A stretch of 60,780 nucleotides of DNA from Methanosarcina sp. (GTDB taxonomy: Archaea; Halobacteriota; Methanosarcinia; Methanosarcinales; Methanosarcinaceae): contig NZ_JAQUVZ010000020.1 of assembly GCF_028693135.1 (NCBI RefSeq), positions 1-60,780 of the forward strand, in the 5' to 3' direction. The notes below the pieces were generated by a model. That model searched no databases and had not been told where the DNA came from. It saw nothing but the letters and a program-made list of their open reading frames with translations. Made by a program: the position numbers and the translations under genes. This document shows positions 3,889 to 54,324 of the stretch, piece after piece. Positions within the stretch are counted from its first letter, which is position 1; each line of letters begins with the position of its first letter.

Positions 3889-4659
3889 ATGGCAGTAATG
3901 ATCGCAACTCTTGGAGGGTCGGGAGACATCGTAAAACTGGGAGTCCGGCTGATGGAAAATGTAGATAAGGTCCTGCTAGTTGCCGGAAAGCCCTTAAACA
4001 GGCTTTATCCGGAATCTGAAATCAAAGAAGGTACGGAAATTGTAAATCCTCCTGAAAAAGCTTTAGAACTTGAAAAACTTCTTGACGGTTTTGGTATAAG
4101 CGTCGAAACCTGCGAAGTAGACCCTTTTAATTTCAAAGAATGCCTCATAACGATAATCGAGTTGATCTATGCCCAGCCCGAAGATGTTGAAGTTGTTTTA
4201 AACGTCACAGGCGGCACAAAAATCCTCTCTCTTGCAGCCATGAGTGCTGCTGGCATGTGCCGGTGCAAAGCTTTCGTTATCCAGGAAAAAGGAAACTGGA
4301 GCATCAAACTTGAACTCCCCATGCCAGACTCCGGCTATTTCGAAAAAATAGGGAAACAGGGAAAAAAGATCCTCTCCTACCTGATGCAGGAAGAAAAGAA
4401 GCTGAACAAACCCCTCGAACAATGCGACGATGAAAAATTAAGGCCCTTCATAAGCAAAAACATAGCAAACCACCTCGGAGTAACACCTCAGACCATTACT
4501 CCAAACCTCAAGACCCTGGAATTTTCCGGGCTTCTTTCCAGCCGGAGAGGAGCAATAAAGAGGGGAGAACCTGCCGGTGGAAAATGCGGAGTAAAAATCT
4601 GGACCCTGACTGACGAAGGAAAAATCTACGCTGCCTATTTCAGCAAAGAAAAACTTTGA
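3889..4659 (+). CDS. CARF-HTH CRISPR regulator, Csa3-like
   Basis: Probable transcription factor of the CRISPR locus. Residues 1 to about 135 have the look of a CARF (Rossmann-like) ligand domain: an opening IATLGGSGDIVKLG strand and a VLNVTGGTKILSLAAMSAA loop like that which binds cyclic oligoadenylate in this family. The C-terminal 90 residues form a winged helix, with NIANHLGVTPQTITPNLKTL as the recognition helix. It follows cas2 by 60 bp with its own purine-rich ribosome site (GCGAGGAAAG). Csa3 proteins are known to control adaptation genes and arrays; that role here is inference. No HEPN ribonuclease motif is seen, so it is less likely to be Csm6/Csx1. Confidence 0.85.
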   Translation: MAVMIATLGGSGDIVKLGVRLMENVDKVLLVAGKPLNRLYPESEIKEGTEIVNPPEKALELEKLLDGFGISVETCEVDPFNFKECLITIIELIYAQPEDVEVVLNVTGGTKILSLAAMSAAGMCRCKAFVIQEKGNWSIKLELPMPDSGYFEKIGKQGKKILSYLMQEEKKLNKPLEQCDDEKLRPFISKNIANHLGVTPQTITPNLKTLEFSGLLSSRRGAIKRGEPAGGKCGVKIWTLTDEGKIYAAYFSKEKL

Positions 4660-27821: not shown

Positions 27822-29006
27822 TTAAGTTTTTGAAAGGGCCTGTTCAAGGTCTGCAATTATATCCTCAGGGTCCTCAATTCCCACAGACAGCCTGACAAGT
27901 CCGTCTTTAATTCCGACCTTATTTCTTATTTGACTGGGGATACAGGCATGGGTCATGGAAGCAGGATGCTGGATAAGGGTATCAGTTGCCCCGAGACTGA
28001 CTGCAAGGGAACAGAGCCTGACGCTGTTCATAAGCCTGCGCCCGGCTTCAATTCCGCCCCGGATCTCAAAAGAGAGCATTCCCCCGTATCCGCTCATCTG
28101 TTTTTTTACGACCTCGTGCTGGGGGTGGCTTGAAAGCCCGGGATACCTTACCCATACTACTGCGGGGTGGGACTCGAGGAAGCTCGCAACCTTCATGGCG
28201 TTTTCAGCATGCCTTTCCATCCGGATGTGCAGGGTCTTAAGCCCTCTGATGCAGAGCCAGGCTTCGTGCGGGCCCATGATCCCGCCTGTATATCCGACAA
28301 CCTTTGCCAGGCTTTTCATAAAATCCCTGCTTCCTACAACGACCCCGCCAAGCAGATCTGCGTGCCCGCCTATGTATTTTGTACAGCTGCTGAGGGAAAC
28401 GTCCGCCCCGAGTAGAAGAGGCTTCTGGAAATAAGGCGTGGCAAAGGTATTGTCTGCGACGCAGATGGCTCCCTGTGCTCTTGCAAGCCTGGCAATTTCC
28501 CTGATGTCACAGACAGTTATTGTGGGATTGGCAGGTGTTTCCAGAAAGACCATTTTAGTTTCCGGTTTAAAGGCTGCCCTCACATTTTCTATATCGGATG
28601 TATCAACAAAACTGACATCTATCCCGAGCCCGGGCAGAACCTCTGAAAAAAGGCTGTAGGTGCAGCCGTACACTACATCCGTTGAGATCAGGTGGTCTCC
28701 CTGTTTAAGGGTAGTGAGCACAACTGCAGTTATTGCAGCCATTCCCGAAGCAAAGGTCTGTCCCGCCTCCCCGCCCTCAAGCACAGCAACCTTTTCGGCA
28801 AGGACCGCATGTGTAGGTGTGTTCGGAGGAATTCTTGCGTATACATACCCGACTTCCTCTCCTGCAAATCTGGCAGCCCCCTGTTCAACATTCTCAAAAA
28901 TAAAGGTTGAAGTCTGAAAGATAGGAGTCGTGTGCGCCCCGAAGACCCGGTCTGGCTTTTCTCCTGCATGCACGCATTTAGTTGCGAACTTAAGTTCTCT
29001 TTCCAT
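27822..29006 (-). CDS. PLP-dependent Cys/Met metabolism enzyme, methionine gamma-lyase-like
   Basis: Family of cystathionine gamma-synthase, methionine gamma-lyase and O-acetylhomoserine sulfhydrylase. The Schiff-base Lys is in SSCTKYIGGHADLLGG, with YARIPPNTPTHAVLAEKVAVLEGGE and FASGMAA near the N-terminus. DVVYGCTYSLF contains the active-site Cys associated with methionine gamma-lyases, which release methanethiol, ammonia and 2-oxobutyrate. In a methanogen, methanethiol could feed methyl-sulfide metabolism (inference). The 394-residue length is typical. YARIPPNTPT differs from the usual YxRxxNPT in having a Pro and an extra residue. Confidence 0.9.
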   Translation of the reverse strand: MERELKFATKCVHAGEKPDRVFGAHTTPIFQTSTFIFENVEQGAARFAGEEVGYVYARIPPNTPTHAVLAEKVAVLEGGEAGQTFASGMAAITAVVLTTLKQGDHLISTDVVYGCTYSLFSEVLPGLGIDVSFVDTSDIENVRAAFKPETKMVFLETPANPTITVCDIREIARLARAQGAICVADNTFATPYFQKPLLLGADVSLSSCTKYIGGHADLLGGVVVGSRDFMKSLAKVVGYTGGIMGPHEAWLCIRGLKTLHIRMERHAENAMKVASFLESHPAVVWVRYPGLSSHPQHEVVKKQMSGYGGMLSFEIRGGIEAGRRLMNSVRLCSLAVSLGATDTLIQHPASMTHACIPSQIRNKVGIKDGLVRLSVGIEDPEDIIADLEQALSKT

Positions 29007-29014: not shown

Positions 29015-30574
29015 AAACCCCTGTTAAAATTAATTTTCTGAATAATTATCTGTCTTTCCGGTAATTATTTGTTTGGAGGGAAAGAACGGAAAAATGTAGC
29101 CTATGTTTAGCAGGTACACGTAATTGTAGTTAAGCACTGTATGTATAAAACTAAAAAATATATGTTCAGTTTTATGGGCGGCAAAGAAATATCCTTGTTA
29201 AAAAATATCTCCTATATAACGAGTTCGATTCTGTTCCAAAATCTAGTGATTTTTGCATTTCTTGATTGAAATTCTGAATTCGCAAGAAGAATCCGATCTT
29301 TAATCAAAATCAATATTCGAGATCTAAAGACTTCGATCCAAAAATCTTATCACAAGAATTATAATCAATTATAAAATTCAGTGATTTTTAATATTACATT
29401 CATCACTGGATTTTGGTACTGAGTCACGAGTATTTAATAATATAAAATCAGAAAAGGAAGCTAAAATCCTAACGAGATTACTCTTTATAATATATCCTTA
29501 TAATCGTATAGGTGTCGAAGATGCATCTAATCGTGTAGAGATATCAAAATCCATTGTATGCACCTGTTTGAAGATAAGGGACGAAGAATCCCAGAATTCA
29601 TTTGATTATTAAGAAAGTCATTTCAAAAAATTCATAGTAGACAAGAAACAAATTAGGGCTTCAATAAATAGAAGTTTTAGGGGTTTATCTTCAAGACTCA
29701 GCTTTTCAAAGAGATGGATTGAAAACTTGCAGACGATGGGTTTAAGTTAAATTTTCTAGGCACTTAACTATAGTTAAGAAATGTGAGAAATATTCAGTAC
29801 TATTAGTGGATACTGTAAAACTGAGTTATTAACTATTGTGATAAAATGGAAAACTTTATAGCTATAATTAATAGTTTCTTAAATTAATTGGAAAATTATG
29901 ATAACTGCAAAGGTTTTCTAAACTATCCGATAGATTCAATCCAATGGATTTATTCTTGTCCCTCCAAATAGACTTTGTTTCAAAATGTATTGATAGACGT
30001 AAAATTAAAAATCACTCTATTTTGGAACTGATTACAAACCTCTGAACATTGAAGTTAACAAGTTCTTCAATAAATCACTTATCTATGAAAAAATCAGTTT
30101 TCTTGTAGCCTCAAATTTTGTGGAAAGCGATGAAGGAATGTGTTGTCTAGGTCTGGGGAAAGGACTTGACTTCGCAGTTGTGGCTTATGAAATTTAATCT
30201 AGCCGGAGATCAAATCGACTATATCTGACAAATCATCTAGATTGCATTGGGATGTATATTTGGCCAAGAGAATATTTCTCGCGCGAACTTCAAGGTCTTT
30301 GAAGGTCAAATAACGTTTAATAGATTATTAAAAGAAAATCTGAATCATAGAGGCATCAGAATCTATAAAATATTCATAAATCTTATTCCTGAGACTTCGA
30401 AAGGAAGCTTCTAAAAAATGAAGATTTATACTCGCCAGATGTGGTTTTAAAAATTATGTCGGGTTATTACTTTGCATTATGAGGCAAAAATTCTTGATTT
30501 TAAAGCTTGATGAGTATAATTTGAATATCCATTTTAGTGTCATTCACTTTAAGCACGATTCAATCATGTGGTCA
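29015..30574. other. Gene-poor AT-rich flank of the island with decayed transposase DNA
   Basis: Nearly 1.6 kb without an intact gene. A frame at about 29450-29720 reads EAKILTRLLFIIYPYNRIGV, then EISKSIVCTCLKIRDEESQ, resembling the N-terminal helix-turn-helix of IS630-type transposases, broken by stops. Nothing else could be recognised. The composition is markedly more AT-rich than the genes to the left. Confidence 0.45.
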
Positions 30575-30662
30575 CTAGTGTCGTGTCAACAGTAAAATCT
30601 CGTATAAAATCGGCTACAACTATTTAGAATTGTTCAATCCTTGAGGATTGACACGACACTAG
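30575..30662. mobile_element. MITE-like element, 88 bp
   Basis: TGTCGTGTCAA and TTGACACGACA form perfect inverted ends, each flanked by CTAG (30575-30578 and 30659-30662), a likely target duplication. There is no coding capacity. It lies 200 bp before the STAND NTPase gene. One related end occurs at about 39700-39716. Confidence 0.75.
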
Positions 30663-30861
30663 GGCGCTGAAATTTATGATTTCATTTGCAACTTTATGGA
30701 TAAAGGTATTGAAATTTTAGGGTTAAGTTCTGTTTGACCTAGTTTTTCCTCATTTCAAATGATTCACCAAGAGTCTAAATGTTTCTTAGGAAAAAAAATA
30801 GAACCTTTAAGCTGTAACTAATAGAGAGTCTATAGATCCAAATTTTCAGGTGGAATCGTAA

Positions 30862-33513
30862 ATGTCTACATATCAGAGAAAATGTAGGATTGGTATTTTT
30901 GGCACAAAAGATGATCAAGAAAATTTAGATAAGATCATAAAATCCATAGATCTAGGTGGAAACGTAGATATTCTCCGTTTTACTAAAACAGCTGACTTTG
31001 GGATAGATGAAGCTCACACGCATAAAACGTGTGTATATGCCTTATCTACCTGCAACATTGCGATTTTTTTTATAAATCGCCGGTATGGTGGTAAATTTCA
31101 ACCCGATGTTTGTTGGGAAATAAGTTCGGAAAATGACTGGTGTTTCGAAATTTCAGTCACTCATGCCGAATATAGAACTGCTAAAGAACTATGTATTCCA
31201 ACTATTGTATTTATTGATTATAATACATATAAAGAATATGGATATAACATTCGTGAACGTCATTTTCGAGTTGTTTCTCAAAATGGGGAAAATAAAGAAT
31301 CCATCAAAAAGAATATGGATTATATTGAGAAACACTGGGAAAAAAGCAACCATGTTCAAGATCCTAAACTATTCTTTTTCATAAATGAAATCACCACCGG
31401 CATGAAAAAGGACACAGGCATGAACAAGAAAGAACTCTACCAAAATTGGAAAGGGGAAAAATATGTTTATGATGATTTAGATGATGAAAAAGGTGAAGAA
31501 GAACTTAAACAAAAAATAATTAATGCAATAAAAGGTTTAACACCTATTTTCTTGAGGCAACTTGCCGAAAAACAAGCTTCGAAATTGCAAGAAGAACTCA
31601 GGGTTGGACCACAGATAAGTTATAAGTTTATGGATGGTCGCGGGCTTTTAGTTGAAAGAGAATTTAAAGACGATTCAGGAAAGATAGTAAAGCAGGATCA
31701 AATTTACGAGGAAAAGAAAGTACTGATAATTGGATCAGGAAGTGACGGAAAAACGTTCACAATGGTCGATTTATTCAGCAAACATGTTGCAAAATGTATT
31801 GACAACAATAGTCTAGAAAATAATCGAGATATTCCTTTATTCATTAGTTTAAAAAACAAAATCGCAACGTTGGACAATGTTTTAGACGTTGATAGTTTAG
31901 TCTGGGATGAAATGGTTGCGAATGATATACATGCACCGACAGATTTGTTTAACCTACATAACACTAATATTACTCTTTATCTTGATGGTCTCGATCAAGG
32001 AAATCAAAAAGATCTTGCCAAATTGGAACTTCTATTTCAAAAGATCAGAAGGTATCCTGGAAATCTGAAATTAATTATTTCAGTGCGCAAAGAATGGCAC
32101 GAACTCTATTATTCAAATTCTCACTTAATATATTTAGAAGAATTTACGAGATACACTCTATTACCTATTAATATAGAAGCGGGAAAAAACCTATTTGAAA
32201 ACTTATTGGGGGCGCTGTTAAAAGAGCGAAATGGGGTGCAATTTGATACTCTGATTTTATCTTTGAAAGACGAAATTATGGAAACATTGTTAAATGGGAC
32301 TATGGATTGTACAATATCCGCATGTGTTTTAGATGCAATGCTGAAACAAAGAGAAAAGTCTGAAAATAAAGAATTATGTATTGTAGATTTCTGTGATCGT
32401 TATTTGGAGTTCGTTGCTCAACATGAAATCAGAGGTAAATTCAGTGATACATACGAAAGCAGATCTGTGGAAAAAAGTGAGTTAGATCAATTACTTGCTT
32501 CCTGGATGGATCTTGCGTACTTAATTGCCTATAAAATAACTAAAGGAGAGAAAGCCACTTATGAGTATTTAATAAAGGAATTAAAAGAGTTAGAACACAT
32601 TTCAGATTATTTGGAAAAAACGTATGGAAGTATCATTTACGGAGAAAAGGCTGATATCTTATTTAAGCATGATCTCTATAAGGAAGTACTTTTATCAAAA
32701 AGAATTGTTGGGTATTTGTCGGATGAAAAAGGTAACTCAAGATTATTGGCTGTAAATAATTGTGCTGGACGACAAATTATGCTCCAGTATCGCTTTAGAG
32801 CATTGGAATCCGACAAGTTTGACAAAATTTATGATAATTTAGTCAAGATTATTTACCGCAATATTTTTAAAATTGATGAAGATTGTGTAAGAATAACCTC
32901 AAACTGTATTTATTTGCTCGGCCAATTAGAAAAGAGTCGAATGAAAGATGTTGATCGAACTAAAAAGTTGATTCGTGCATTCAGAAATCTCACAACAGAT
33001 AGCTTTGTTGACGTTTGTGCTCTCTACGCTCTTACAGAGCTGGGTGATGAGGAAAGTGCGTTAGAATTAGCGGAAGGACACAAGAATATCGAAATTCTGA
33101 ACACAGACACCTCTTTTCACTTAATGTACTATGGAGTTGCTAGTTCGAAATATCTTCCTTCAAAAAACTCTTCCCAAAAAGAGGTAATAAACTGTAATAC
33201 AATGTTTGATGAATTTAAAAATTATTTTGAAAACGTCAACAAAGAAGAAGAAGAACATTTGAGAATAATAAAAATTTTAAGGGTTAAGATTTATGCTGAA
33301 ATCATTTGTGATGCTTTGTTCCGATATCATAGCAAATATTCACCAAACGAAGCTTTAGAGTGGATCGAAGGATTTATAGAATTAACCTTCAAAATTGATG
33401 TTCTCACTCTGGATAAAGAAGGGACTCTAGAAAAATCAATTATTGAATCACTTTATTTATTTTATAAGACCAAAAGGCAGATCCAGATTCAATATAAAAT
33501 TTCTAGCTCCTGA
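30862..33513 (+). CDS. STAND NTPase: DUF4062-NACHT defence-type protein
   Basis: Signal-transducing ATPase with a probable immune role. Residues about 10-115 match DUF4062: ALSTCNIAIFFINRRYGGKF and SVTHAEYRTAKELCIPTIVFI. A NACHT-type P-loop follows, GSGSDGKTFTMVDLF (about residue 290), Walker B TLYLDGLDQ (about 373), and sensor segment LKLIISVRKEW. The remaining 450 residues are helical with repeat character, the usual target-sensing region. Known bacterial and archaeal NACHT and Avs proteins trigger abortive defence; that is the family inference. No ribosome site is clear. DUF4062 as an N-terminal effector is seen in other STAND proteins. The gene is AT-rich, in keeping with transfer. Confidence 0.85.
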   Translation: MSTYQRKCRIGIFGTKDDQENLDKIIKSIDLGGNVDILRFTKTADFGIDEAHTHKTCVYALSTCNIAIFFINRRYGGKFQPDVCWEISSENDWCFEISVTHAEYRTAKELCIPTIVFIDYNTYKEYGYNIRERHFRVVSQNGENKESIKKNMDYIEKHWEKSNHVQDPKLFFFINEITTGMKKDTGMNKKELYQNWKGEKYVYDDLDDEKGEEELKQKIINAIKGLTPIFLRQLAEKQASKLQEELRVGPQISYKFMDGRGLLVEREFKDDSGKIVKQDQIYEEKKVLIIGSGSDGKTFTMVDLFSKHVAKCIDNNSLENNRDIPLFISLKNKIATLDNVLDVDSLVWDEMVANDIHAPTDLFNLHNTNITLYLDGLDQGNQKDLAKLELLFQKIRRYPGNLKLIISVRKEWHELYYSNSHLIYLEEFTRYTLLPINIEAGKNLFENLLGALLKERNGVQFDTLILSLKDEIMETLLNGTMDCTISACVLDAMLKQREKSENKELCIVDFCDRYLEFVAQHEIRGKFSDTYESRSVEKSELDQLLASWMDLAYLIAYKITKGEKATYEYLIKELKELEHISDYLEKTYGSIIYGEKADILFKHDLYKEVLLSKRIVGYLSDEKGNSRLLAVNNCAGRQIMLQYRFRALESDKFDKIYDNLVKIIYRNIFKIDEDCVRITSNCIYLLGQLEKSRMKDVDRTKKLIRAFRNLTTDSFVDVCALYALTELGDEESALELAEGHKNIEILNTDTSFHLMYYGVASSKYLPSKNSSQKEVINCNTMFDEFKNYFENVNKEEEEHLRIIKILRVKIYAEIICDALFRYHSKYSPNEALEWIEGFIELTFKIDVLTLDKEGTLEKSIIESLYLFYKTKRQIQIQYKISSS

Positions 33514-33586
33514 CTTAATAAATTACACTCTTTATTTGTGGATGAAAAGTTTCACCAAATTCATTCCGATTGATAATTATTTTGAT

Positions 33587-33720
33587 ATTCAGGTAACCTT
33601 TGTTTCCAAATTTTGAAAGCATATGAGAAGCTTTGAAAAGATACTATGTCAATAGACCTCTATTTTGAGATTTTTCTTAGGAACAAGAAAAAAATGTAGT
33701 CTTTAAAAGGTTACCTGAAT
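33587..33720. mobile_element. MITE-like element, 134 bp
   Basis: Perfect 15-bp inverted ends, ATTCAGGTAACCTTT (33587-33601) and the complement (33706-33720). If the element begins at TTCAGG, it is flanked by TA on both sides, the target duplication of IS630/Tc1-type elements. No coding capacity. It sits between the STAND gene and the radical SAM operon and could have carried a promoter in or a boundary. Confidence 0.8.
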
Positions 33721-33838
33721 AATTAAGAAAAATCACTAGAGTAGGAATTTTGTCAAATAAAAACAGAGTTCATTTATATATGATGGCATATACATCTTTA
33801 AAATTGGAGTAAAAATCCAACAGTAAGAGGGAGGATGT

Positions 33839-36064
33839 TTGTTTCGACGATTGAATAACCAAAATACAGTTTTAGATAAATTGGAGGAAAGTAACCAAAT
33901 GGACAGGTTCAGAAACATACTTTCCAAGTTTTGGTTAAGTCCGGAAGAAATGGTCGATCTAATTGTAAATGATATCGAGAAACATACAAAGAATAATTCC
34001 TTAAAAGTGATTGTTTCTGGAGAGACTGAAAACATTTCACTATATATATTGGACAAAAATAATGTGTTTGTTTTTTCTCCTTTTTCCCCAATTGAAAACA
34101 ACGTCTTACTGAATGAAATTTATGATAAAGAGAAAATTCCATTAAATATAAATTCATATATATTTTCCCTTGATAATGAGATTCTGAATAGGCTAAAGAT
34201 GCCAAAAGTATTATTCGTAAATCCTTGTGTTAATGAAAACTTTCCAATCCCACGATTATGTTTGAGTATTGGAGTTCTAGCAGGTTACCTCCGAAAATAT
34301 CAAAAGGCCGAGGTACGCATAATCGATATGCAAATGAATTTTACCCTAAGTGACGTTGAAAAATGCGTTGAACTTTTTTCTCCAGATATGATATCGATAT
34401 CAATCTCCTTTGGACAAAAGGATTTAGCAATATCTATATTGGAAAAGGTGTATAAAAATAAATGCTCAAATAAAAAACCATTAATAGTTATAGGAAATAT
34501 TATTCCAGCTTCCTATCCTCAAGAATTCTTGGACTTGTATCCTAATATATTGATATCTCATGGGGAAGGAGAGATTACTCTTCTTAAGTTAATTGACTAT
34601 ATTAAAGGAAAATGCAAATTATCAGAAGTCCCCGGTCTTGTTTATTTGAATGAAATAAATATAATGAAAAGAACGGAAAACTCCTCAGTTTCTATGTCGG
34701 ATATTCCATTACCAGCTTTGGATACGATAAAAAGTATTTCAGACCTCCGTGGAGCTTTGACTCTAGAACTAAGTAGAGGGTGTCAATGGAATTCTTGTTC
34801 AATCTGTCCCCGTGAGCATAAGTCTTCTCTATGGAAAACATATAATCCAGAAGAAGTTTCAAGGTTGTTTTATCTTATTCATAAAGTGTGTGAGGAATTC
34901 AATTTAGAAAAACATATCTTTCTCGCTGATGAAGAATTCATTGGAGGTACAAGTGATGAAGAAACTGAAAGAATTCAAAACATATGTAATATTTTCATAA
35001 ATTGTAAACGCCATCTGAAATATGATGCTTCTACACGAGTAGACCAGATATATAATCCTAATAAAGATGATGAATGGCACATCAAAAGAGTGGAAATGTG
35101 GCACTTTTGCAAGAAATCGGGTCTCGAAAAACTATTTGTCGGAATAGAATCTGGCTCAGATAATCAATTGAAAAGGTACAATAAAGGAATCAAGAAAAGT
35201 GACTCAGTAATTGCAATTCGTATTCTAACTGCCCTTGGGATATCTCCTAGATTTGGGTTTATCACCTTTGACCCTCTAATGCAAGGTTTTAATGATCTTA
35301 AGGAAAATATTGAGTTTTTAAGCAGGACTGATGCCTTCATAAATAAAATTGATGTAGAAAAATATGGCTATAAAAAACTGTTTCATTTGTTGCAAGATGA
35401 ACGTTTTGTAGAAGCAAACAAAACAGGTATACCTATTTACGCTGGCGTTTCTTATATGTTAGCCAGTCTTGAAGTTTTAATAAACAGTCCTTATGTGGAA
35501 ATGATTAGAGAAGTTGAACAAAATAAAAGGAAAATGTTAATTTCAAACGACGTTCCTGATATAAATATGTGTAGATACAAAACCAAATATTTAGATGAAT
35601 TTATTCAAGATATAAGCGTATCTGCACAGAAATGGATTGACAGAAATTTTGCAGTTGCATACTGCATCAAAAGTTTGCACAAAGTTGCTCCACCTAGTGA
35701 AAAAAAAATATTAATGAATTGGATGATAACTTATAGAAAGATAAGTTTATTCCTTCTAAGAGCCCTAATTTATATCTTTGATGAAAATGAGAATGAATCA
35801 ATAATTGTCCCACTTGAGAATCCTCACATAATAAATAACATTAGAAACATAAGACTAAAATATAAACATGATAAGTCCCTTAATAGATTGACTTTGATTC
35901 TTAAATGCATGGACATATTTGAGGATTTAATTAAAAAGCAGAACGATGAAATGTTTCACTTATTAGAAATTGGGATGGTCTCAGATAATTCAAACAACGA
36001 TCTTTACACAATTTTGCATACTTGGAAAAATAACATGGGAATTTGGAAGCTAATAAATGGATGA
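33839..36064 (+). CDS. B12-binding-type radical SAM protein, 741 aa
   Basis: Enzyme that would use a [4Fe-4S] cluster and S-adenosylmethionine. Residues about 115-290 look like the cobalamin-binding Rossmann domain of B12-radical SAM proteins (LFVNPCVNENFPIPRLCLSI, then VRIIDMQ and HGEGEITLLKLIDYI). The cluster motif is SRGCQWNSCSICPRE, C-x4-C-x2-C, followed by a TIM-barrel (LADEEFIGG, GIESGSDNQLKRYNKG). About 220 C-terminal residues are unlike known families. The TTG start at 33839 follows GAGGGAGGA; ATG 33899, with GGAGG before it, is an alternative. First gene of a four-gene run. Confidence 0.85.
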   Translation: MFRRLNNQNTVLDKLEESNQMDRFRNILSKFWLSPEEMVDLIVNDIEKHTKNNSLKVIVSGETENISLYILDKNNVFVFSPFSPIENNVLLNEIYDKEKIPLNINSYIFSLDNEILNRLKMPKVLFVNPCVNENFPIPRLCLSIGVLAGYLRKYQKAEVRIIDMQMNFTLSDVEKCVELFSPDMISISISFGQKDLAISILEKVYKNKCSNKKPLIVIGNIIPASYPQEFLDLYPNILISHGEGEITLLKLIDYIKGKCKLSEVPGLVYLNEINIMKRTENSSVSMSDIPLPALDTIKSISDLRGALTLELSRGCQWNSCSICPREHKSSLWKTYNPEEVSRLFYLIHKVCEEFNLEKHIFLADEEFIGGTSDEETERIQNICNIFINCKRHLKYDASTRVDQIYNPNKDDEWHIKRVEMWHFCKKSGLEKLFVGIESGSDNQLKRYNKGIKKSDSVIAIRILTALGISPRFGFITFDPLMQGFNDLKENIEFLSRTDAFINKIDVEKYGYKKLFHLLQDERFVEANKTGIPIYAGVSYMLASLEVLINSPYVEMIREVEQNKRKMLISNDVPDINMCRYKTKYLDEFIQDISVSAQKWIDRNFAVAYCIKSLHKVAPPSEKKILMNWMITYRKISLFLLRALIYIFDENENESIIVPLENPHIINNIRNIRLKYKHDKSLNRLTLILKCMDIFEDLIKKQNDEMFHLLEIGMVSDNSNNDLYTILHTWKNNMGIWKLING

Positions 36065-36121
36065 AAACAGCTTTTTTAATTATCAAAATGAGCCTATGAA
36101 GTGGTTGAAGAGGCAGAAAAT

Positions 36122-37276
36122 ATGTCCGAGAGAATAACTAACAAAGAATTAACAATGATAAAATTACAACTTTTAGCTAATGGCATTAGTTTCGATTCAA
36201 ATTTTTTAAAAAATTACAATAATTCTGTATACATTGAAAAGAGATGGGCTTATGGAAATGGTGACGAGGAAGTATTTGCTTGTAAAATTCCCCAAGAAAT
36301 AAAGCTAAAAGACATCGTAGTAGCAGTCCATTATAGGAAAGATTCTAAATGGGTGCTTACATCTTCAGGGGATAAATACAGTTTGAATTATAATGATAGT
36401 TTTATTATAGACGTCACATTTCCTTTGCGCCCAAAATTCTATGATGAAAAACTAAAAAATGGTACTTATTGCAGATCTGTGGGCACACTTTATGGGGGAG
36501 GAGCACTTGGGATATTCTCACCCGGATCATGTTATAATTTTAAGCAAGGTTTGCCTTGCAAGTTTTGTTCCTTAGAGCCGACTCGTAACAAGCTAGGTGA
36601 CCATGTTAAAGATATTACTCCGGAACTAGCGGCTGAACTCGTTGAAGTTGCACTTACAAAAGATTCGAATTTGATCGGACAGATTATGTTAAATGGGGGT
36701 AACTATCCAAGCAATGATTATGGCTTTCTAAAACAAGTCAACACTGTAAAATTGATTCGTGAAAAAATGAGTGGGCTTGAATTAAAGGACAATATAGAGA
36801 TCCATTTAATTGGTATGCCACCCGATGATCTCAGTCTGTTAGATGAATTAAGCGACTTGGATGTCCAAGTTTCAATGAACATAGAAGTGTATTCTCCAGA
36901 AATCTTTGAAGATATAGCTCCAGGGAAACATAAATTTTATGGAAGAAACAAAATAATAAAAGGCTTAGAAAAAGCAGTAGATATATTGGGAAAAGGTAAT
37001 GTTTATACAGTGTTTTTGGGGGGTTTGGAACCGATGCAATCTCTTGAAAATGGACTTTACTTTATGGCACAAAAAGGAATAAATCCCGTGATTAATGTTT
37101 TTCATCCAGACCCAAAATCAGGTTTAGGAAATTATCCTCGTGTTTCCGTAGAGTCTATGGAAAAAATGGGAGAAATACTACAAGAAGTTTATACGAAATT
37201 CAATTTTAGGTCTCTTTTTCAAGGGTTTGGAAGGAATTCTTTGGATAACGAAGCTTATTTGGGATATTTTGGCTAA
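36122..37276 (+). CDS. Radical SAM protein with C-x8-C-x2-C motif
   Basis: The cluster-binding region reads GSCYNFKQGLPCKFCSLEPT, giving C-x8-C-x2-C in place of the usual C-x3-C-x2-C. After it come IMLNGGNYPSND and IEIHLIGMPPDDL (SAM-binding strand and Gly-rich loops of the barrel), then MNIEVYSPEIFEDIAPGKHK and TVFLGGLEPMQSLENG. The N-terminal 120 residues are an extra domain with beta character. ATG 36122 follows AAGAGGCAG; GTG 36101 is the longer option. The gene ends two bases before the HIT gene. The substrate is unknown; the close pairing with another radical SAM suggests consecutive steps. Confidence 0.85.
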   Translation: MSERITNKELTMIKLQLLANGISFDSNFLKNYNNSVYIEKRWAYGNGDEEVFACKIPQEIKLKDIVVAVHYRKDSKWVLTSSGDKYSLNYNDSFIIDVTFPLRPKFYDEKLKNGTYCRSVGTLYGGGALGIFSPGSCYNFKQGLPCKFCSLEPTRNKLGDHVKDITPELAAELVEVALTKDSNLIGQIMLNGGNYPSNDYGFLKQVNTVKLIREKMSGLELKDNIEIHLIGMPPDDLSLLDELSDLDVQVSMNIEVYSPEIFEDIAPGKHKFYGRNKIIKGLEKAVDILGKGNVYTVFLGGLEPMQSLENGLYFMAQKGINPVINVFHPDPKSGLGNYPRVSVESMEKMGEILQEVYTKFNFRSLFQGFGRNSLDNEAYLGYFG

Positions 37277-37975
37277 ATGGGAATGGATAATATGAATACA
37301 ATAGAATCTGAAGATGATCTTAGAAAAATTTGCACGTTTTGTGCAGAGATAAAAAAGCAGGAGCAGTATAACTTATATTGCGAAATGTTTGGGAAACAAA
37401 TAAATTATAGATATATTCTAAAAGAAACAGAACATTTTTTAGTAATACCTCCTGCCGGCTCTTTTGTTCCAGGTTATCTCGAAATAATACCCAAAGAACA
37501 TGTACCTTCTTTTGGAAAATTATCTAGTAAACTAGATGAAGAACTAACTTGTTTGCGTATTCTAGTTGAAGATTGGATTAAAAAATATTACAGCAAATAT
37601 GTAATATACTTTGAACACGGTTCGGCTAATTTCAAGAACAGAGGAGGGAGCACTTCAGATCATGCTCATTTGCATATAGTCCCTGTTCCAAAATATGTTG
37701 ACTTGGCTCCTAGTTTATTCAGGGACTTTAATCCCATAAAAATAATTGATTTTTCGGCAATTCACGAACAAGTAAAAAATGGAAATCCTTACCTATTATA
37801 TACACATCATGACAACATTATGTACATATGTGATGCTTCTAACGCGAAGTCCCAATATTTCCGGCGTGAAACATTAATTCAGTTAGGATTAGAAGAACTA
37901 TGGGATTGGAAAACAAATCTCGGAAGAGAAAATATAATGAAAACAATAGAAATGTCTGAAAAATATGCATTTTAA
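37277..37975 (+). CDS. HIT-superfamily protein
   Basis: Nucleotide hydrolase/transferase fold. The catalytic triad region is DHAHLHIVPVPKYVD (HxHxH), with upstream PPAGSFVPGYLEIIPKEHVPSFG that matches the HIT beta-strand entry. An N-terminal CTFC pair could bind zinc. C-terminal 60 residues extend beyond a minimal HIT domain, as in CwfJ or adenylyltransferase relatives. It starts at the base after the previous stop, so it is translated with the radical SAM gene. Likely action is on a nucleotide or nucleotidyl conjugate (family inference); several ATGs (37277, 37283, 37292) are possible starts. Confidence 0.85.
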   Translation: MGMDNMNTIESEDDLRKICTFCAEIKKQEQYNLYCEMFGKQINYRYILKETEHFLVIPPAGSFVPGYLEIIPKEHVPSFGKLSSKLDEELTCLRILVEDWIKKYYSKYVIYFEHGSANFKNRGGSTSDHAHLHIVPVPKYVDLAPSLFRDFNPIKIIDFSAIHEQVKNGNPYLLYTHHDNIMYICDASNAKSQYFRRETLIQLGLEELWDWKTNLGRENIMKTIEMSEKYAF

Positions 37976-38005
37976 TGAATAGAAAGTATCGCTGGGTACT
38001 ATAAC

Positions 38006-38920
38006 ATGACAATCAAACAATTTATAAAAGTGAAATGGGATGACAACGCAGATGCATATTTAGAATTTTTTGATTACAAAAAAAATACATTTGAATTTAT
38101 CCCAGCTAAAGAAAAAATGATAATAAAAAAGATGACTAAAAAATATTGTAAGGGACACTTCAATTTAGAAAAGATGCAGGAATTTCCTTGTGAAAAAAAG
38201 ACTGATTTAACAGAAAGTAATTACATTGTATGTAAAGAATGTAATGAACTAACAGGATTTAATTTATGCCTATTTTGTAAAGGTGATAAATGTTCATCAC
38301 AAAGTAAGAATGCAATTGAGTTTTGTAAGAAAAAACATGTTGTTTACTTGGCTTATTTTCCCGGTGATAGACTTAAAGTCGGCACAGCCGTTTATGAGCG
38401 AAGGTTCGAAAGACTTTTAGAGCAGGGCGCTTTATACTCAATTTTCATCGCAATTGCTGACGGCAGAACAGTGAGAGCTATAGAAACAAGTGTAGCAAAT
38501 TTAGGAATAAGTGATAAGGTAAGTAATAAATATAAAATTAAACATATTATTATTGATAAGTCTAGTGAAGAGATTAAAGATATACTAATTAGCAAACTAG
38601 ATGACATTAAACCCAATATCAGTCCCAGATTTAAGAATTTCTTAATCGATCCTGAATTTAATAACTTTGGAATTATATTCGATAAAGCAGCTCCTTTACT
38701 CAAATCAAAAACAACTCAATTGACATTACAATTCTTTGAAGAGACCGAGAATAATAAAATAATAGATCTCGATTACACAATTCAGAATGAGACAAATATC
38801 ATTGAAGGCATTATTTTAGCTTCAATAGGTAGTATAATATTAATTAAGCGAGATGGAACTGTATATGCCGTCGATTTAAAAAAACTCACTGGTTGGTTGG
38901 TAGACGTGGACATTAATTGA
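38006..38920 (+). CDS. DUF2797 family protein
   Basis: A 304-residue protein with a Cys-rich centre (CKGHF...PCEKK...VCKECNELTGFNLCLFCKGDKC), likely to bind zinc, and the DUF2797 core HVVYLAYFPGDRLKVGTAVYERRFERLLEQGA, whose VYLA...VGT pattern resembles a GIY-YIG nuclease fold. Arg in RRFERLLEQ and Glu in AIETSVANLGI could complete such a site; this is inference. Activity is unknown. It follows the HIT gene by 30 bp and completes the rSAM-rSAM-HIT operon. Confidence 0.85.
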   Translation: MTIKQFIKVKWDDNADAYLEFFDYKKNTFEFIPAKEKMIIKKMTKKYCKGHFNLEKMQEFPCEKKTDLTESNYIVCKECNELTGFNLCLFCKGDKCSSQSKNAIEFCKKKHVVYLAYFPGDRLKVGTAVYERRFERLLEQGALYSIFIAIADGRTVRAIETSVANLGISDKVSNKYKIKHIIIDKSSEEIKDILISKLDDIKPNISPRFKNFLIDPEFNNFGIIFDKAAPLLKSKTTQLTLQFFEETENNKIIDLDYTIQNETNIIEGIILASIGSIILIKRDGTVYAVDLKKLTGWLVDVDIN

Positions 38921-39992
38921 ATTAAGCCTAAGTTAAATCTTTTGTCAAATATAGTCACCCATGGATATCAAGTAACATGATTATACTTGAGACAAGTATA
39001 TTAATTCAGTTATGAGCTTGAATAGGTTACTATGGATAATATTGCTAAAGCAATTATTAACACCTATGATAAAAACAGATGAGACTTAAGCTTTATTATT
39101 GGTCAAAAATAGTTTGAGCCCAGCTAAAGTCGCAGAAGATTTTTTAGTTTATAGCTCAAACGGTTTACTGTTAGAGCTTATCCTAAAACTCAAATTTTGC
39201 TCATTTGAATATTTATTCCGAATAATAGTGGTGTTCCAGATCATGAAAGTAATCATTAAAACTTTTAATGACTAAAAATCAAACTGCGTGTGGCCACCCC
39301 AACCTAAACAGGCTGTCCGACAATTCAATTTAAGGGCAAAAACATGTAATAAATAAGGTGTATAAAGCCTCTAAATAGAAAAAGGAGGAAATTTAATAAT
39401 ACTTAGAGTAATTATCGGACAGCTTGTAAAGGACAGGGTATTCGTGACCCTTTGCACTCCCGAAGTAATAAAATGGCTTTTGGGATGAGTTATTGGATAA
39501 AGCTTACTGAAAAAATGTAGGTGCAAAAATTTCATTCTAGACCAAACTGGCAAAAATCAAAAAAGCAGAAGAGTTTTATCAAACAATAAAAATATGGCTG
39601 CAAACACTAGTGGCTAGGAAATTTAGTTCTGAGTCTTCATAATTAAGAAAGGGACCATGGATGAGGTATTGTCTAAGTATTAACGCCCAGTAATTAAATT
39701 GTCATGACACTAGTGCAGCGATTCCAAACTAAATCCCTTACTTAGTAGAAAATTCGTTAATCAATAGACAAACCAAAAACCAAGGTTTTATGAGCATACT
39801 TTGGAATTGCAACACTAGATTCTCATCCAATTGCTCCATAGGAACTCAATAGAGTATTGTTGGAGAACGACCCACAAACGTCAAGAACGATAAAGTAATG
39901 CAAACGTATTAAAGTATATGGAAAATCTAGATAAATTTTGGGAGAATGTATACTTATACATAAGACCCCTCATTATTTAAAATGGTGACTAT
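38921..39992. other. Gene-poor region with element remnants
   Basis: About 1.07 kb without a recognisable gene. It holds the 112-bp MITE-like element at 39312-39423 and a solo end of the 88-bp MITE family near 39700-39716. A fragmentary plus-strand frame near 39429 reads FVTLCTPEVIKW, possibly a broken transposase or regulator. AT-rich. Confidence 0.4.
39312..39423. mobile_element. MITE-like element, 112 bp
   Basis: GCTGTCCGACAATT (39312-39325) and AATTATCGGACAGC (39410-39423) form 14-bp inverted ends with one mismatch. A solo copy of the left end occurs at 26638. No coding capacity. Confidence 0.65.
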
Positions 39993-40853
39993 ATGGATGA
40001 AATTATTTTTTTTAATACCGAAGATGCAGAATCTCTAACATTATTATCACCTTTTAAATCTCATCGGAAAGTAAATGGTCTATTATCAGCATTGTTCTAC
40101 AAATTACCAGTTTCTAAAGAGGGGTTCTTGCTCATTAATCCTATTTCAAATATTGAAACTATTTTGAATGATCATAATTATGAAATAGTGATGTGTAGAC
40201 CAGATGCTCTAATAGGCGAAGGGAATTATTTACCAAGAGGTAGAGATTTACCACCAGAAAAAATAAACTCGTTTTTACTTGAAACGAAAAAAATCCATAA
40301 ATCAGGGATACTTTTGGGTTTTAGACATCCCTCCATAGAGTTAACTGAGAAATATATTCCAAGATACAAGACATCTGGAGCAATAGTTGTTATTTTTAAT
40401 GTTGGGGATTGTATCATATTTGAACATGTTGGACCTGGATTTGATGTTGGTGAGATTACACGGGGGAAAACAGTTCATAATAGTGTGATTATTCCATGGA
40501 ATGACAGGTTCGATAAACCATCTCAAATATTTAGACTAGCAAGAATGAAATTATATCAAAGATTTCACATAGATTACAAACAATATTTAGAGGTGAGGCA
40601 AAGTAGGATAAAAGAATTAGTTGAAAACTTAGGAGAAATTCTCATTGATGATATTAATTCATCAATTCCTTTAAAACCAACTGAGTTAGACTTTAAACTA
40701 TTTTTAAATGTATATGCAAATTGTATTGAAAAATTAATATATTCAGAAACAACATCGTTAGGTAATAAATTTGGTATAGTTCTGAATGTATACAATGAGA
40801 AAATACACATTTTCGAAATATGGAGAACTGAAAAGTTAAATAAGTTTAGCTGA
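39993..40853 (+). CDS. Hypothetical protein, 286 aa
   Basis: Soluble, no signal or membrane segment. The N-terminus is MDEIIFFNTEDAESLTLLSP; a central block, NYLPRGRDLPPEKINSFLLETKKIHKSG, then IVVIFNVGDCIIFEHVGPGFDVGEITRG, has several conserved-looking glycines and aromatic residues but no motif I recognise. It lies at the right edge of the AT-rich island, separated by 1 kb of element debris from the DUF2797 gene, so it may be unrelated to that operon. Confidence 0.6.
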   Translation: MDEIIFFNTEDAESLTLLSPFKSHRKVNGLLSALFYKLPVSKEGFLLINPISNIETILNDHNYEIVMCRPDALIGEGNYLPRGRDLPPEKINSFLLETKKIHKSGILLGFRHPSIELTEKYIPRYKTSGAIVVIFNVGDCIIFEHVGPGFDVGEITRGKTVHNSVIIPWNDRFDKPSQIFRLARMKLYQRFHIDYKQYLEVRQSRIKELVENLGEILIDDINSSIPLKPTELDFKLFLNVYANCIEKLIYSETTSLGNKFGIVLNVYNEKIHIFEIWRTEKLNKFS

Positions 40854-41563
40854 AAATTTAGTTTTATTCTAATGATCTCAAATTAACTCTGAAATACCTG
40901 ATTTAATGCGACAATTGTTTCTTTATAAACCTAAGATATATTCATTTGTATTCGGTCAGGATACGAAGCGCCCATAAAGTGTTATTTTTATACTAATATC
41001 TAAGAATTATATAGGAAAATAGCGATATGTGGTATTCGAAGTTGTGCATAAAAATCGTTAACCGATGACAAATGAGGATATAGTTATATGACCCTTTAAT
41101 CTCTCTACTTATTTGATTTATAACCTAAATTCAGCAGGTAAACGTAATAAGAGATCTATTTTCATATTTAGCTCTCATGAGGTTCCCATCCTTGCAGCAA
41201 GCTGCAAGGTATTCGACTGAAGAAAACTTGCTTTTATGTAGATATATCAGAAATTTTAAAAACATAACCGGCTATATATCCCTAATTTGACATATTCTGC
41301 TAATTAATACAGTATTTTATTACAAAAAACATGTTGTAACGACACATTACCTTTAGGTAAAATGAAAAATGTCAAATATCAATAAACACAAAATATAAAT
41401 TTGAATTGTATAAAGAAAACCGAAGCATGAAGCCCATTTATACATTACAAAATATATGATTCTGTCACACTAGGGATATATGTGAAGCAAAAAGCCACAA
41501 TATTAATAAGAAGTTACGGATGTTGCGCCAGAAGCAACCTAAAACGTTAAAGGAAGGCCTTCC
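40854..41563. other. Intergenic region before pncB
   Basis: 710 bp without a gene. A 9-bp stem (CCTTGCAGC/GCTGCAAGG, 41190-41209) with an AA loop lies in the middle. A hairpin GTTGC/GCAAC at about 41523-41538 precedes the ribosome site AAAGGAAGG of pncB. This stretch marks the change from the AT-rich island to normal composition. Confidence 0.4.
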
Positions 41564-42769
41564 GTGATAAAATCCATACTTGATAACGATCTTTACAAGT
41601 TTACCATGCAAATGGCTGTACTGGAATTATTTCCCAAAGCAGAAGCAGAATACCGTTTTACCAACCGGGGATCTCAGCGCTTTTCCGAAGAGTTTGTAGA
41701 CGAACTGAGAAGGGTCATAGACGAAGAAATAACCGGATTAAGGCTGACAGAAGACGAGTATCACTGGCTTGGTGAACACTGCTCTTTTCTGAAACCCATG
41801 TATCTTGAATACCTCAAGAATTTTCGTTTCAGACCCGAGGAAGTAAAAGTCTGCCTCACCGGAGAAAAAGAACTGGATATTCGGATAAAAGGGCCCTGGC
41901 ACAGCACGATTCTGTGGGAAATTGTCATTATGGCTGCGGTTTCAGAGCTCTATTTCACAACTATAGAGAAGGAATGGAACAGGAGCACGAAAGACCCGGA
42001 TACAGCCGAATCCGTACTTGCAGCTTATGGAGACAAAATCCTGGAACTCGGAAAGGATCTTGAGGAAAACGGCTGTCTTTTTGCTGAATTCGGGACTCGA
42101 CGACGGAGAAGCTTTGAACTCCACGACCATGTAATGAAAACCCTCCTGCAGATAAAAACCCTTACAGGGACAAGCAATGTCTATTTTGCAAAAAAATATG
42201 GTTTAAAACCTATAGGTACGGTAGGTCACGAATGGATCATGGGCACTTCTGCGCTTGTAGGGCTCAGGTACGCTAACCGCTTCGCTTTTGAAAACTGGGT
42301 GGAGGTCTACAAAGGGGACCTTGGAATTGCCCTTACGGATACCTTCGGCTCTGAGGCTTTTTTTAAGGATATGGACCTGAAGCTGTCTAAAATCTACGAT
42401 GGTTTCAGGCACGACAGTGGAGACCCCCTCATCTTTGTGGATAGGGTAATAGAGCATTACAGGAAAATGGGCATTGACCCCATGAAAAAGGTAATCGTTT
42501 TCAGTGACGCCCTCGACGCCGAAGCCGCAATTCGGCTCAAAAAGTATTGCCAGGACAAAATCAACTGCAGTTTCGGAATCGGCACAAGCCTTACCAACAA
42601 TTATGAGTTCTTCCGGGAAAGCCCTCCTCTGAATATGGTAATTAAACTCCACAGTGTTAACGGTATTCCGGTAGTGAAATTAAGCGATTCTCCCGAAAAA
42701 GAGACTGGGGAAAGGGACGCCCTCAGGGTTGCAAACTATATCGTAGGAAGAAAAGGGCTGGATGAATGA
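41564..42769 (+). CDS. pncB: Nicotinate phosphoribosyltransferase
   Basis: Forms nicotinate mononucleotide from nicotinate and PRPP in NAD salvage. The N-terminus, [21 protein letters not shown], and ATYRFTNRG-like block (AEYRFTNRG) are diagnostic, as are [30 protein letters not shown] and [11 protein letters not shown], which carry phosphoribosyl and base contacts. [13 protein letters not shown] and [10 protein letters not shown] complete the phosphate-binding barrel. Length is typical at 401. The GTG start follows a strong AAAGGAAGG. A polypurine tract follows the stop. Confidence 0.97.
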
Positions 42770-51908: not shown

Positions 51909-54296
51909 TTAAATATTCTGCGTAGCCGTAAACCCATTTTCTGGAAACGACAGCATCGGCTTTGGAAGATCCATGTCAAGTGCCTCTTTCAAGACTTCCT
52001 CAATGGTCTCTACCGGTACGAATTTAAGTTCGTTTCTGACATCTTCAGGCACGTCCTCAAGGTCTCTCTCGTTTTCTTTTGGCAGGATTACCTTTTTTAT
52101 GCCTGCCCTGTGGGCTGCCAGGATTTTCTCCTTTATGCCGCCCACAGGCATTACTGCACCACTCAACGTGATTTCCCCTGTCATGGCAATTTTTGGATCA
52201 ACTGCTTTGCCGGTTATCAGGGATGTAAGGGCAGTAAAGAGGGTCACACCTGCGGACGGGCCGTCCTTTGGAGTTGCACCTGAAGGCACATGGATATGAA
52301 TGTCGCTTGAAGTGAAGTTAAAGCTGTTCGCAGTGTTTGCAAGCCTGGACCTGACAAGGCTCAAAGAGATCTGTGCAGACTCTTTCATCACGTCCCCGAG
52401 CTGGCCTGTAAGGGTGAGCTTTCCTTTTCCGGGCATGAATGTGCCTTCAATGAAGAGGATTTCTCCTCCTACAGGGGTCCAGGCAAGGCCGGTGACCACG
52501 CCGGGAACGTTCTCTTTTCTGGCCTCTTCCTGCCTGACCAGTTCTTTTCCGATGATCTCCTTGAGCATCTCCGGTTTTACCACGTAAGGCAGGTCAGCCT
52601 TGCCTGAGACTATCTTCTCAGAAACAAACCTCGCAGTCTTTGCAAGCTGTTTTTGGAGCTGCCTGACTCCTGCTTCACGGGTGTATTTTTCGATGATAAC
52701 TTTCAGGGCTTCATCTTCAATTTTGAGTTTATCCGCATCAAGACCGTGTTCTTCCAGGGTGCTGGGGAGCAGGTGGTCTTTTGCAATTGCAAACTTCTCG
52801 TTTTTCGTGTAGCTCGAAATCTCTATCAGCTCCATCCTGTCAAGGAGTGGCGCCGGAATCGTTGCCAGGGAGTTGGCAGTGGCAATGAACAATACCTCTG
52901 ACAGGTCATATGGAACTTCAAGGTAGTGGTCCGAAAAGCTGCTGTTCTGTTCGGGGTCAAGGACTTCCAGAAGGGCACTTGACGGATCTCCTGCATAGGA
53001 AGTTGAAAGCTTATCGACTTCGTCGAGGATAAAGACCGGGTTTTTAGTGCCTGCTTTTTTCATGCCCTGTATAATCCTTCCGGGCAGAGCCCCTACGTAT
53101 GTTCGGCGGTGCCCCCTGATCTCGGATTCATCTTTGACGCCTCCGAGGCTGGCACGGACATATTCTCTGCCAAGGGCATCTGCAATGCTCTTTCCAAGGC
53201 TTGTTTTGCCGGTGCCCGGCGGGCCTATGAAGAGCAGGATCGAGCCCTGTTTCTCCTTTTTCAATTTCATTACTGCCAGGTGCTGGATTATTCTCTCCTT
53301 GACTTTTTCAAGCCCGTTATGGTTATTCTCAAGCACACGGCGGGCTTCGGCAATATCGATGTTCTTTTTCTCTTCCGTTACCCAGGGAAGGTCGAGCATT
53401 AGGTCCAGATAGTTTCGGATAACAGGGCTTTCAGGATTATGGCTGCCTCCGGTTTCGAGTTTCTTTAGCTCTGAGAGCGCTTTCTTTCTGACCTCGTCAG
53501 GCATCTTCGAATTCTCAATTCTTTCCCGGTATCCTCCTTCCCCTGATACGGAATCTTCATTTTCATTGAGTTCTTCCTGGATTACCTTCAACTGCTCCCG
53601 AAGCATCGCCTCTCTATGCGATTTGCTGATCTTATCTGTAACTTTTTTTGCTATTTCCATCTGGAAATTGATATTCTCTTTGTGCTCCATCAGAATGTCA
53701 ACAAACTTAAGATATCGTTCTCTAACAGAAACGATCTCCAGAAGGGCCTGCTTTTCTTCAAGTTTTATCGGCATGAATGGCATGACATATCCCATTATCT
53801 GGTCAATGGAAACCATCTTCTCGATTGGCCGGGTAAACTTCTCAGAACCCTGAAAACGGCTGCTTATCTCATTAACTGTCGTTTTTACATTCTCTATCAT
53901 TTCTGCCTGAACATCTTCATCAAGGTCCTGAAGGTCCATGACAGGCTCATATGTGGCATAGAACAGTCCGTCCTTCCGGTAAAGAGAGACGACCTCTACC
54001 CTCTGGACAGCCTTTGCAACAACAAGATATCCTTCATCAGCAGGCTGTACAAACACAATCTTAAGCAGATTTCCTGTTTTATACAGATCGTCTTCTGACA
54101 GGTCTGAAGGTATTGTGCCGCTCTTTACTGTCAGCCCAACAGCGTACACAGGCTCGGCGTTTTTCATCTCAGTTGATAGTATTTCCCCTGTGGCTTTGTC
54201 AGCCAGGAATTTTGCCCGGCTTTTCGGGTAAACCACTACTTCAAAGAGAGGCATTACGATGTTTTCTATATTTTCATCAGTGTTTTTCGTGTACAT
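51909..54296 (-). CDS. lon: ATP-dependent Lon protease (bacterial type)
   Basis: Soluble LonA-type protease, 795 residues from ATG 54296 (AGGA nine bases before). Domains in order: N-terminal substrate domain (LFEVVVYPKSRAKFLAD), a coiled region, AAA+ with Walker A GPPGTGKTSLGKS, Walker B VFILDEVDKL, and a Ser-Lys protease domain ([24 protein letters not shown]). Archaea normally have membrane LonB; this type is bacterial and suggests transfer. It degrades misfolded and regulatory proteins. The promoter holds two satellite repeats, so expression may be variable. A dead duplicate of the C-terminus lies 1.6 kb away. Confidence 0.95.
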   Translation of the reverse strand: MYTKNTDENIENIVMPLFEVVVYPKSRAKFLADKATGEILSTEMKNAEPVYAVGLTVKSGTIPSDLSEDDLYKTGNLLKIVFVQPADEGYLVVAKAVQRVEVVSLYRKDGLFYATYEPVMDLQDLDEDVQAEMIENVKTTVNEISSRFQGSEKFTRPIEKMVSIDQIMGYVMPFMPIKLEEKQALLEIVSVRERYLKFVDILMEHKENINFQMEIAKKVTDKISKSHREAMLREQLKVIQEELNENEDSVSGEGGYRERIENSKMPDEVRKKALSELKKLETGGSHNPESPVIRNYLDLMLDLPWVTEEKKNIDIAEARRVLENNHNGLEKVKERIIQHLAVMKLKKEKQGSILLFIGPPGTGKTSLGKSIADALGREYVRASLGGVKDESEIRGHRRTYVGALPGRIIQGMKKAGTKNPVFILDEVDKLSTSYAGDPSSALLEVLDPEQNSSFSDHYLEVPYDLSEVLFIATANSLATIPAPLLDRMELIEISSYTKNEKFAIAKDHLLPSTLEEHGLDADKLKIEDEALKVIIEKYTREAGVRQLQKQLAKTARFVSEKIVSGKADLPYVVKPEMLKEIIGKELVRQEEARKENVPGVVTGLAWTPVGGEILFIEGTFMPGKGKLTLTGQLGDVMKESAQISLSLVRSRLANTANSFNFTSSDIHIHVPSGATPKDGPSAGVTLFTALTSLITGKAVDPKIAMTGEITLSGAVMPVGGIKEKILAAHRAGIKKVILPKENERDLEDVPEDVRNELKFVPVETIEEVLKEALDMDLPKPMLSFPENGFTATQNI

Positions 54297-54324
54297 TGTC
54301 AATAGTCCTAATTATTATGAAGTT

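Follow-up and report, generated by a model that had tools for sequence, protein, structure and literature searches.

Oxetane nucleosides have antiviral, antibacterial and herbicidal activity, and only two are known, albucidin and oxetanocin A, both of them bacterial (PMC7074753, PMC13331322). Albucidin is produced by Streptomyces albus subsp. chlorinus NRRL B-24108, and two of its genes, albA and albB (identical to alsA and alsB), are enough for albucidin formation in a Streptomyces host, as established by mutagenesis and deletion (PMC7074753); the oxetanocin A pathway is that of oxsA and oxsB on a Bacillus megaterium plasmid. OxsB and AlsB yield one and the same bicyclic compound and can replace each other when given the right substrate, deoxyadenosine triphosphate (dATP) for OxsB and the monophosphate (dAMP) for AlsB (PMC13331322). 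Described here is a related operon in a 60,780-nucleotide stretch of DNA (the window: contig NZ_JAQUVZ010000020.1, positions 1 to 60,780, assembly GCF_028693135.1) from the 4.2-Mb genome of an archaeon, Methanosarcina sp. The operon encodes two radical S-adenosylmethionine (SAM) enzymes, rSAM1 and rSAM2, followed by a HIT-domain protein, a DUF2797 protein and a fifth conserved open reading frame (ORF), ORF286. We consider it probable that this island operon arrived by horizontal transfer and directs the biosynthesis of an oxetane nucleotide of the albucidin type; homology, orthology, operon conservation and insertion are demonstrated here.

The first enzyme, rSAM1, matches OxsB (5ul2) across residues 21-740 (phmmer E=1.4e-169) at 41.4% identity, and its B12-binding and Radical_SAM matches lie slightly below the Pfam cut-offs. 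Its start codon is a TTG that follows GGAGG, with an alternative ATG at 33899. The cysteine motif C-x4-C-x2-C (SRGCQWNSCSIC) occurs, among 71 sequences, only in rSAM1, OxsB and a Gemmatimonadota sequence (L042), and these three group together with support of 100/100; AlsB and the remaining AlsA-paired enzymes fall outside this clade. Forcing all AlsA-paired enzymes into one clade costs 294 log-likelihood units and is rejected (approximately unbiased test, p-AU 1.6e-7). By sequence, then, rSAM1 is a member of the OxsB/AlsB family that is not an AlsB orthologue, and the pathway is best described as a variant. Assignment of rSAM1 as a methyltransferase or tRNA modifier was rejected, with OxsB the best specific match and NCBIfam methylase models scoring far under their cut-offs. 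A preliminary description of the locus had read the radical SAM pair as catalysts of a difficult C-H or methyl-transfer step leading to a modified nucleotide, for defence or tRNA, or to a natural product. The difficult C-C or C-H step and the modified nucleotide or natural product agree with the present assignment, whereas neither methyl transfer nor a role in tRNA finds support.

The second enzyme, rSAM2, belongs to NF045502 ('variant_rSAM', E=5e-72) and carries the C-x8-C-x2-C motif (CYNFKQGLPCKFC) also found in AlsA. It is 39.5% identical (E=3.7e-81) to the 'biotin synthase-like' AlsA encoded by albA of the albucidin producer (locus L073, 8259-9566), and a phylogeny computed from 49 sequences of variant radical SAM enzymes places it in one clade with six AlsA-type sequences (support 100/98). 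We therefore take rSAM2 to be orthologous to AlsA, which acts as the second radical SAM enzyme when albucidin is made; the alternative of a general 'variant rSAM' of other archaea was discarded, those relatives falling in other clades and other gene contexts. The cluster-binding cysteines are intact in both radical SAM enzymes. In the AlsA tree, rooted on further variant radical SAM sequences, rSAM2 of the window branches first, in agreement with the rSAM1 tree. Because an OxsB-clade enzyme is here paired with AlsA, this pairing may be more ancient than the divergence of OxsB from AlsB, and the oxetanocin route may be derived. On the simplest reading the pairing came first, and AlsA was lost in oxetanocin producers, which rely on OxsA instead; exchange of partners is the alternative, given few sequences and several long branches. 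Scans of viral contigs returned one Nocardia-like contig and one fragment with rSAM1 and no match with rSAM2.

Conservation of the gene set was assessed in surveys of plasmids and genomes. A tblastn survey of plasmids recovered OxsB-like genes and one clear rSAM1-rSAM2 pair, on an Agrobacterium plasmid; an alignment of the OxsB-like sequences was then used to scan 84,980 species genomes, which gave 71 loci including that of the albucidin producer. Six of the seven AlsA sequences were found through OxsB-like queries, and genome surveys centred on AlsA therefore constitute the stronger test of association. In these, samples from three bacterial classes gave AlsA-type genes in 1 of 395, 1 of 395 and 1 of 350 genomes, and the Treponema order held one true and one distant AlsA among 294 genomes. 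The family thus occurs in about 1 of 300-400 genomes, a frequency that may in reality be lower because the counted genome was in each sample the search centre. The AlsA-centred surveys returned no AlsA without an OxsB/AlsB gene, a distant relative (L139) aside, and in all seven cases the two genes directly adjoin. The HIT gene recurs in three of the seven clusters, the DUF2797 gene in four and ORF286 in two, which makes them recurrent components, not universal ones. A Treponema genome (L095) has rSAM1, rSAM2, HIT, DUF2797 and ORF286 in identical order and tight spacing. A Pedobacter cluster (L099) has rSAM1, rSAM2, a nucleotidyltransferase-like gene and DUF2797; Herbaspirillum (L047) has a nucleotidyltransferase gene, rSAM1, rSAM2, a kinase gene and a major facilitator superfamily (MFS) gene; Agrobacterium (L032) has rSAM1, rSAM2, NUDIX and GalE genes, plus an MFS gene.

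A chance neighbourhood of unrelated genes is excluded for the radical SAM pair because AlsA is rare and yet always lies beside OxsB/AlsB. For the set as a whole we regard such an origin as having a negligible probability, given the shared gene order in Treponema, the seven-of-seven pairing and the DUF2797 gene that is single-copy and located in the cluster in four genomes from four phyla (it is found in none of four other genomes that carry oxs/als-type genes). The preliminary description had named rare co-occurrence of the families as the outcome that would mark a chance grouping, and the survey did not bear this out. It had also reported four consecutive genes with short gaps; the co-directional rSAM1, rSAM2, HIT and DUF2797 genes do lie at the stated place, on the plus strand and with intergenic gaps of 36, 0 and 30 bp (Table 1). 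The motifs and families named there (C-x4-C-x2-C, C-x8-C-x2-C, HxHxH and DUF2797) were each confirmed. The four-gene set is thus real, although the fifth gene, ORF286, and the OxsB and AlsA identities had been overlooked; a set then thought to match no described pathway contains the oxetane-nucleoside pair, AlsB/OxsB plus AlsA.

Table 1. Positions in the window of the operon genes, the island that carries them and adjoining features.
Feature	Position	Strand	Description
rSAM1	33839-36064	+	OxsB-clade B12-dependent radical SAM enzyme, predicted to contract the sugar ring
rSAM2	36101-37276	+	Radical SAM enzyme of the AlsA type; AlsA eliminates one carbon during albucidin synthesis
HIT-domain protein	37277-37975	+	CwfJ-like, HxHxH
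DUF2797 protein	38006-38920	+	PF10977; predicted GIY-YIG-like core with Cys motifs
ORF286	39993-40853	+	Fifth conserved gene; probable ATP-grasp (PPDK/rifampin-phosphotransferase type)
Acquired island	29097-41220		Between metC and the nicotinate phosphoribosyltransferase gene; ~12.1 kb
metC	27822-29006	-	Left flank
Nicotinate phosphoribosyltransferase gene	41564-42769	+	Right flank
STAND-like NTPase	30862-33513	+	N-terminal DUF4062-like domain; neighbour outside the conserved set
Inverted repeat	33587-33721		ATTCAGGTAACCT ... AGGTTACCTGAAT; between STAND and rSAM1, read from sequence
MITE-like element	41274-41481		208 bp, ending in inverted repeats of 42 nt; not present in close relatives

Several loci seen in the surveys differ in composition. 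About 60 loci (L043-L111, L033-L035), nearly all actinobacterial, carry OxsB-like enzymes, mostly with CX3CX2C, and no AlsA, and three inspected OxsB-like plasmid loci contain aminotransferase, formyltransferase, aldo/keto reductase, phosphatase and NUDIX genes; these AlsA-less loci are probably nucleotide natural-product clusters. An alphaproteobacterial genome of 0.9 Mb (L044, 6085-11830) has an OxsB-like gene directly after ribonucleotide reductase-like genes. The distant AlsA relative in the Treponema order (L139, 9671-13486; 245 bits) stands beside B12-radical SAM-like and adenylation-type genes and possibly belongs to a different pathway. Two further loci of that order (L140, L141) hold several 'variant rSAM' genes in tandem with NMT1-like substrate-binding proteins of the ATP-binding cassette (ABC) type, a separate recurrent pairing.

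Three additional proteins accompany the radical SAM pair. In the HIT protein, HxHxH lies within SDHAHLHIV and is conserved across eight homologues; the nearest solved structures are CwfJ/Cwf19-like proteins and HIT hydrolases, and homologues occur in the albucidin region (37% identity) and in the Treponema operon. The nucleotide chemistry that the preliminary description expected from this fold fits the assignment to an oxetane-nucleotide pathway. The DUF2797 protein matches PF10977 (E=3e-13), with conserved positions that include Cys residues, a VYxAxF-like motif, KVG, R132 and E160, and the nuclease-like pattern noticed earlier in it agrees with a predicted core that resembles GIY-YIG domains (Z only 2.7-4.2 against the Slx1, I-TevI and UvrC domains, in a low-confidence model with a mean predicted local distance difference test score, pLDDT, of 47). 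These features are in keeping with a nucleic-acid-binding regulator. DUF2797 is reported as a Zn-ribbon core gene in flavobacteria, which indicates that the family overall is not specific to this pathway (PMC9425974). ORF286 begins 1,072 bp 3' of the DUF2797 gene, beyond non-coding DNA that contains an inverted repeat. Its Treponema homologue (E=2.7e-36) lies immediately 3' of DUF2797. ORF286 gave no sequence-family match in profile searches and no match in a plasmid search; in a low-confidence model (pLDDT 46), the 50 structural matches listed all look like ATP-grasp proteins, with rifampin phosphotransferase and PPDK among the best (top match 5fbs, Z 7.4), as would suit a kinase or ligase.

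The producer's own region contains counterparts of two of these proteins. HIT (1815-2531) and DUF2797 (5430-6551) genes are encoded there on the opposite strand, no more than 7 kb from alsA/alsB, and the published order is HIT, thymidylate kinase, PPDK, DUF2797, nucleotidyltransferase, a small gene, albA, albB and albC (Table 1 of PMC7074753). By order and annotation, the HIT gene appears to be gene 9 and the DUF2797 gene appears to be gene 12. Gene 12 was the sole other gene whose single deletion stopped albucidin production, and its authors assigned it no function (PMC7074753). ORF286 was considered as the counterpart of the producer's PPDK-like gene 11 and rejected, the two having no detectable sequence similarity.

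For the substrate, the product and the roles of HIT, DUF2797 and ORF286, we infer the following scheme from the protein families. rSAM1 would contract the deoxyribose of dATP or dAMP, by means of cobalamin and two SAM-derived radicals, to a [2.1.0] bicyclic intermediate, from which rSAM2 would remove one carbon to leave an adenine-bearing oxetane 5'-phosphate with a single hydroxymethyl phosphate. This oxetane nucleotide would have no equivalent of the 3'-hydroxyl and, as the triphosphate, would be an obligate terminator of DNA chains. HIT probably hydrolyses or transfers nucleotide phosphates, for product release or self-protection, DUF2797 probably controls expression, and the ATP-grasp-like ORF286 probably phosphorylates or ligates. 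The locus resembles the albucidin pathway in its OxsB/AlsB-family enzyme and AlsA orthologue and in the presence of HIT and DUF2797 homologues in the region. It differs in its archaeal host, in an rSAM1 of the OxsB clade with CX4CX2C that precedes rSAM2, in the placement of HIT and DUF2797 within the operon, and in ORF286 in place of gene 11; genes for ribonucleotide reductase (albC), thymidylate kinase and nucleotidyltransferase are absent from the island. With the oxetanocin A pathway it shares the OxsB clade, the identity to OxsB and the cysteine motif, but it has an AlsA-type second radical SAM enzyme and lacks the gene for the HD phosphohydrolase OxsA; family-profile searches found no HD-domain match among the six larger island proteins.

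Several observations weigh against the albucidin-type assignment. Identity between rSAM1 and AlsB is only 28.7%, and the ring-contracting enzymes that are paired with AlsA do not form a single clade, and for these reasons the substrate or product could differ. Several clusters have no HIT or ORF286-type genes. When genes were deleted in the heterologous Streptomyces host, only albA, albB and gene 12 proved indispensable, gene 9 being among those that could be lost, and a strong promoter before albA-C made gene 12 dispensable as well (PMC7074753), a bypass from which the authors proposed a regulatory effect of gene 12. A rival reading is that the product is a new oxetane or ring-contracted nucleotide other than albucidin, altered or conjugated through the OxsB-clade enzyme or the HIT and ATP-grasp proteins. 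The conservation of the predicted ATP-grasp gene with Treponema would suit such a product, as would the position of rSAM1 outside the AlsB group, yet rSAM2 retains AlsA orthology and motif, and the intermediate is common to OxsB and AlsB (PMC13331322). This outcome is conceivable but rather doubtful.

The fate of an albucidin-type product is a further question. As with the Streptomyces and Bacillus compounds, the nucleoside could be secreted as an antibiotic: the phosphorylated product would be dephosphorylated by HIT or a host phosphatase and leave the cell to inhibit competitors, an idea that is compatible with the albucidin-type assignment and to which we give an even chance. Both characterized relatives produce secreted nucleosides, the clusters of Herbaspirillum, Agrobacterium and Duganella contain MFS or ABC exporters together with NUDIX or kinase genes, and HIT occupies the place taken by NUDIX in Agrobacterium. 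However, the window has no exporter beside the operon, none is evident beside the Treponema and Pedobacter operons, and the producer's HIT gene is, as noted above, dispensable.

The operon lies on an insertion, probably acquired horizontally. Close Methanosarcina relatives have 263-355 bp between metC and the nicotinate phosphoribosyltransferase gene, against 12.5 kb here; their homology ends at 29094-29097 of the window and returns at 41220, and the GC content of the insert is 0.318 versus 0.406 and 0.426 in the flanks. The accessory island proposed in the preliminary description is borne out by this low GC content and by the empty site in relatives. Also raised there was possible membership of the neighbouring STAND-like gene, 325 bp 5' of rSAM1, in the conserved set. 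Inspection of the encoded sequence shows a P-loop, and there is a DUF4062 match under the cut-off (E=2e-4). STAND was rejected as a component of the system, since searches of the other oxs/als loci, of 30 further Methanosarcina genomes and of plasmids found no homologue. Between STAND and rSAM1 lies a perfect 13-bp inverted repeat whose arms are separated by about 110 bp, possibly an operator or a mobile-element remnant.

An accessory island that encodes a predicted chain terminator also invites comparison with prokaryotic viperins, synthases of 3'-deoxy-3',4'-didehydro-nucleoside triphosphates (ddhNTPs). The resemblance, a radical SAM route to a chain-terminating nucleotide, is one of function only; the chemistry here would be ring contraction on a predicted deoxynucleotide substrate, and the searched libraries gave no viperin-family match. 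In an intracellular antiviral defence of this kind, an oxetane dATP analogue would be retained in the cell, with STAND or DUF2797 as the switch. An OxsB-type enzyme prefers dATP and could yield the active triphosphate directly (PMC13331322), the island has no exporter and carries the STAND-like gene close upstream, and rSAM1 at high similarity is confined to this genome among 31 of the genus. Set against this, STAND is not conserved alongside the operon, several bacterial AlsA clusters have MFS or ABC exporters, and the known oxetane nucleosides are secreted. PADLOC gave no match for five of six proteins and only a weak AriB match for DUF2797 (E=0.0015). Nor is the insertion site a defence hotspot: by inspection only, other insertions there contain no recognizable defence genes, a 14-kb insertion in another Methanosarcina (L161) holding genes for surface and repeat proteins. 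We judge retention for defence unlikely, and attach a similarly low probability to an archaeal antiviral dATP analogue made by the OxsB-clade enzyme and AlsA, with HIT and DUF2797 serving control and self-protection.

Elsewhere in the window, translated ORFs at 5128-6542 give the tandem peptide SRARSTKTRIET, a repeat array that resembles CRISPR, near a Csa3-like regulator gene (3889-4659). The segment 49935-50351 repeats the C-terminal part of a Lon-type protease (51909-54302) and is probably a partial duplication.

The core chemistry of an albucidin-type pathway is already known. New are the archaeal setting, the combination of an OxsB-clade enzyme with AlsA, and the recurrent HIT-DUF2797-ORF286 module; no report of an archaeal oxetane-nucleoside pathway was found in a literature search that left most subscription papers outside. 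With this assignment the pathway extends to an archaeal genus that is amenable to genetics and whose anaerobic life makes it a natural host for oxygen-sensitive radical SAM enzymes. HIT, DUF2797 and the ATP-grasp-like protein emerge as recurrent accessory parts, and the unexplained gene 12 of albucidin production gains, by gene order, an identity as DUF2797. If the defence function were true, it would represent a chain-terminator strategy parallel to that of viperin, built on contraction of the sugar ring.

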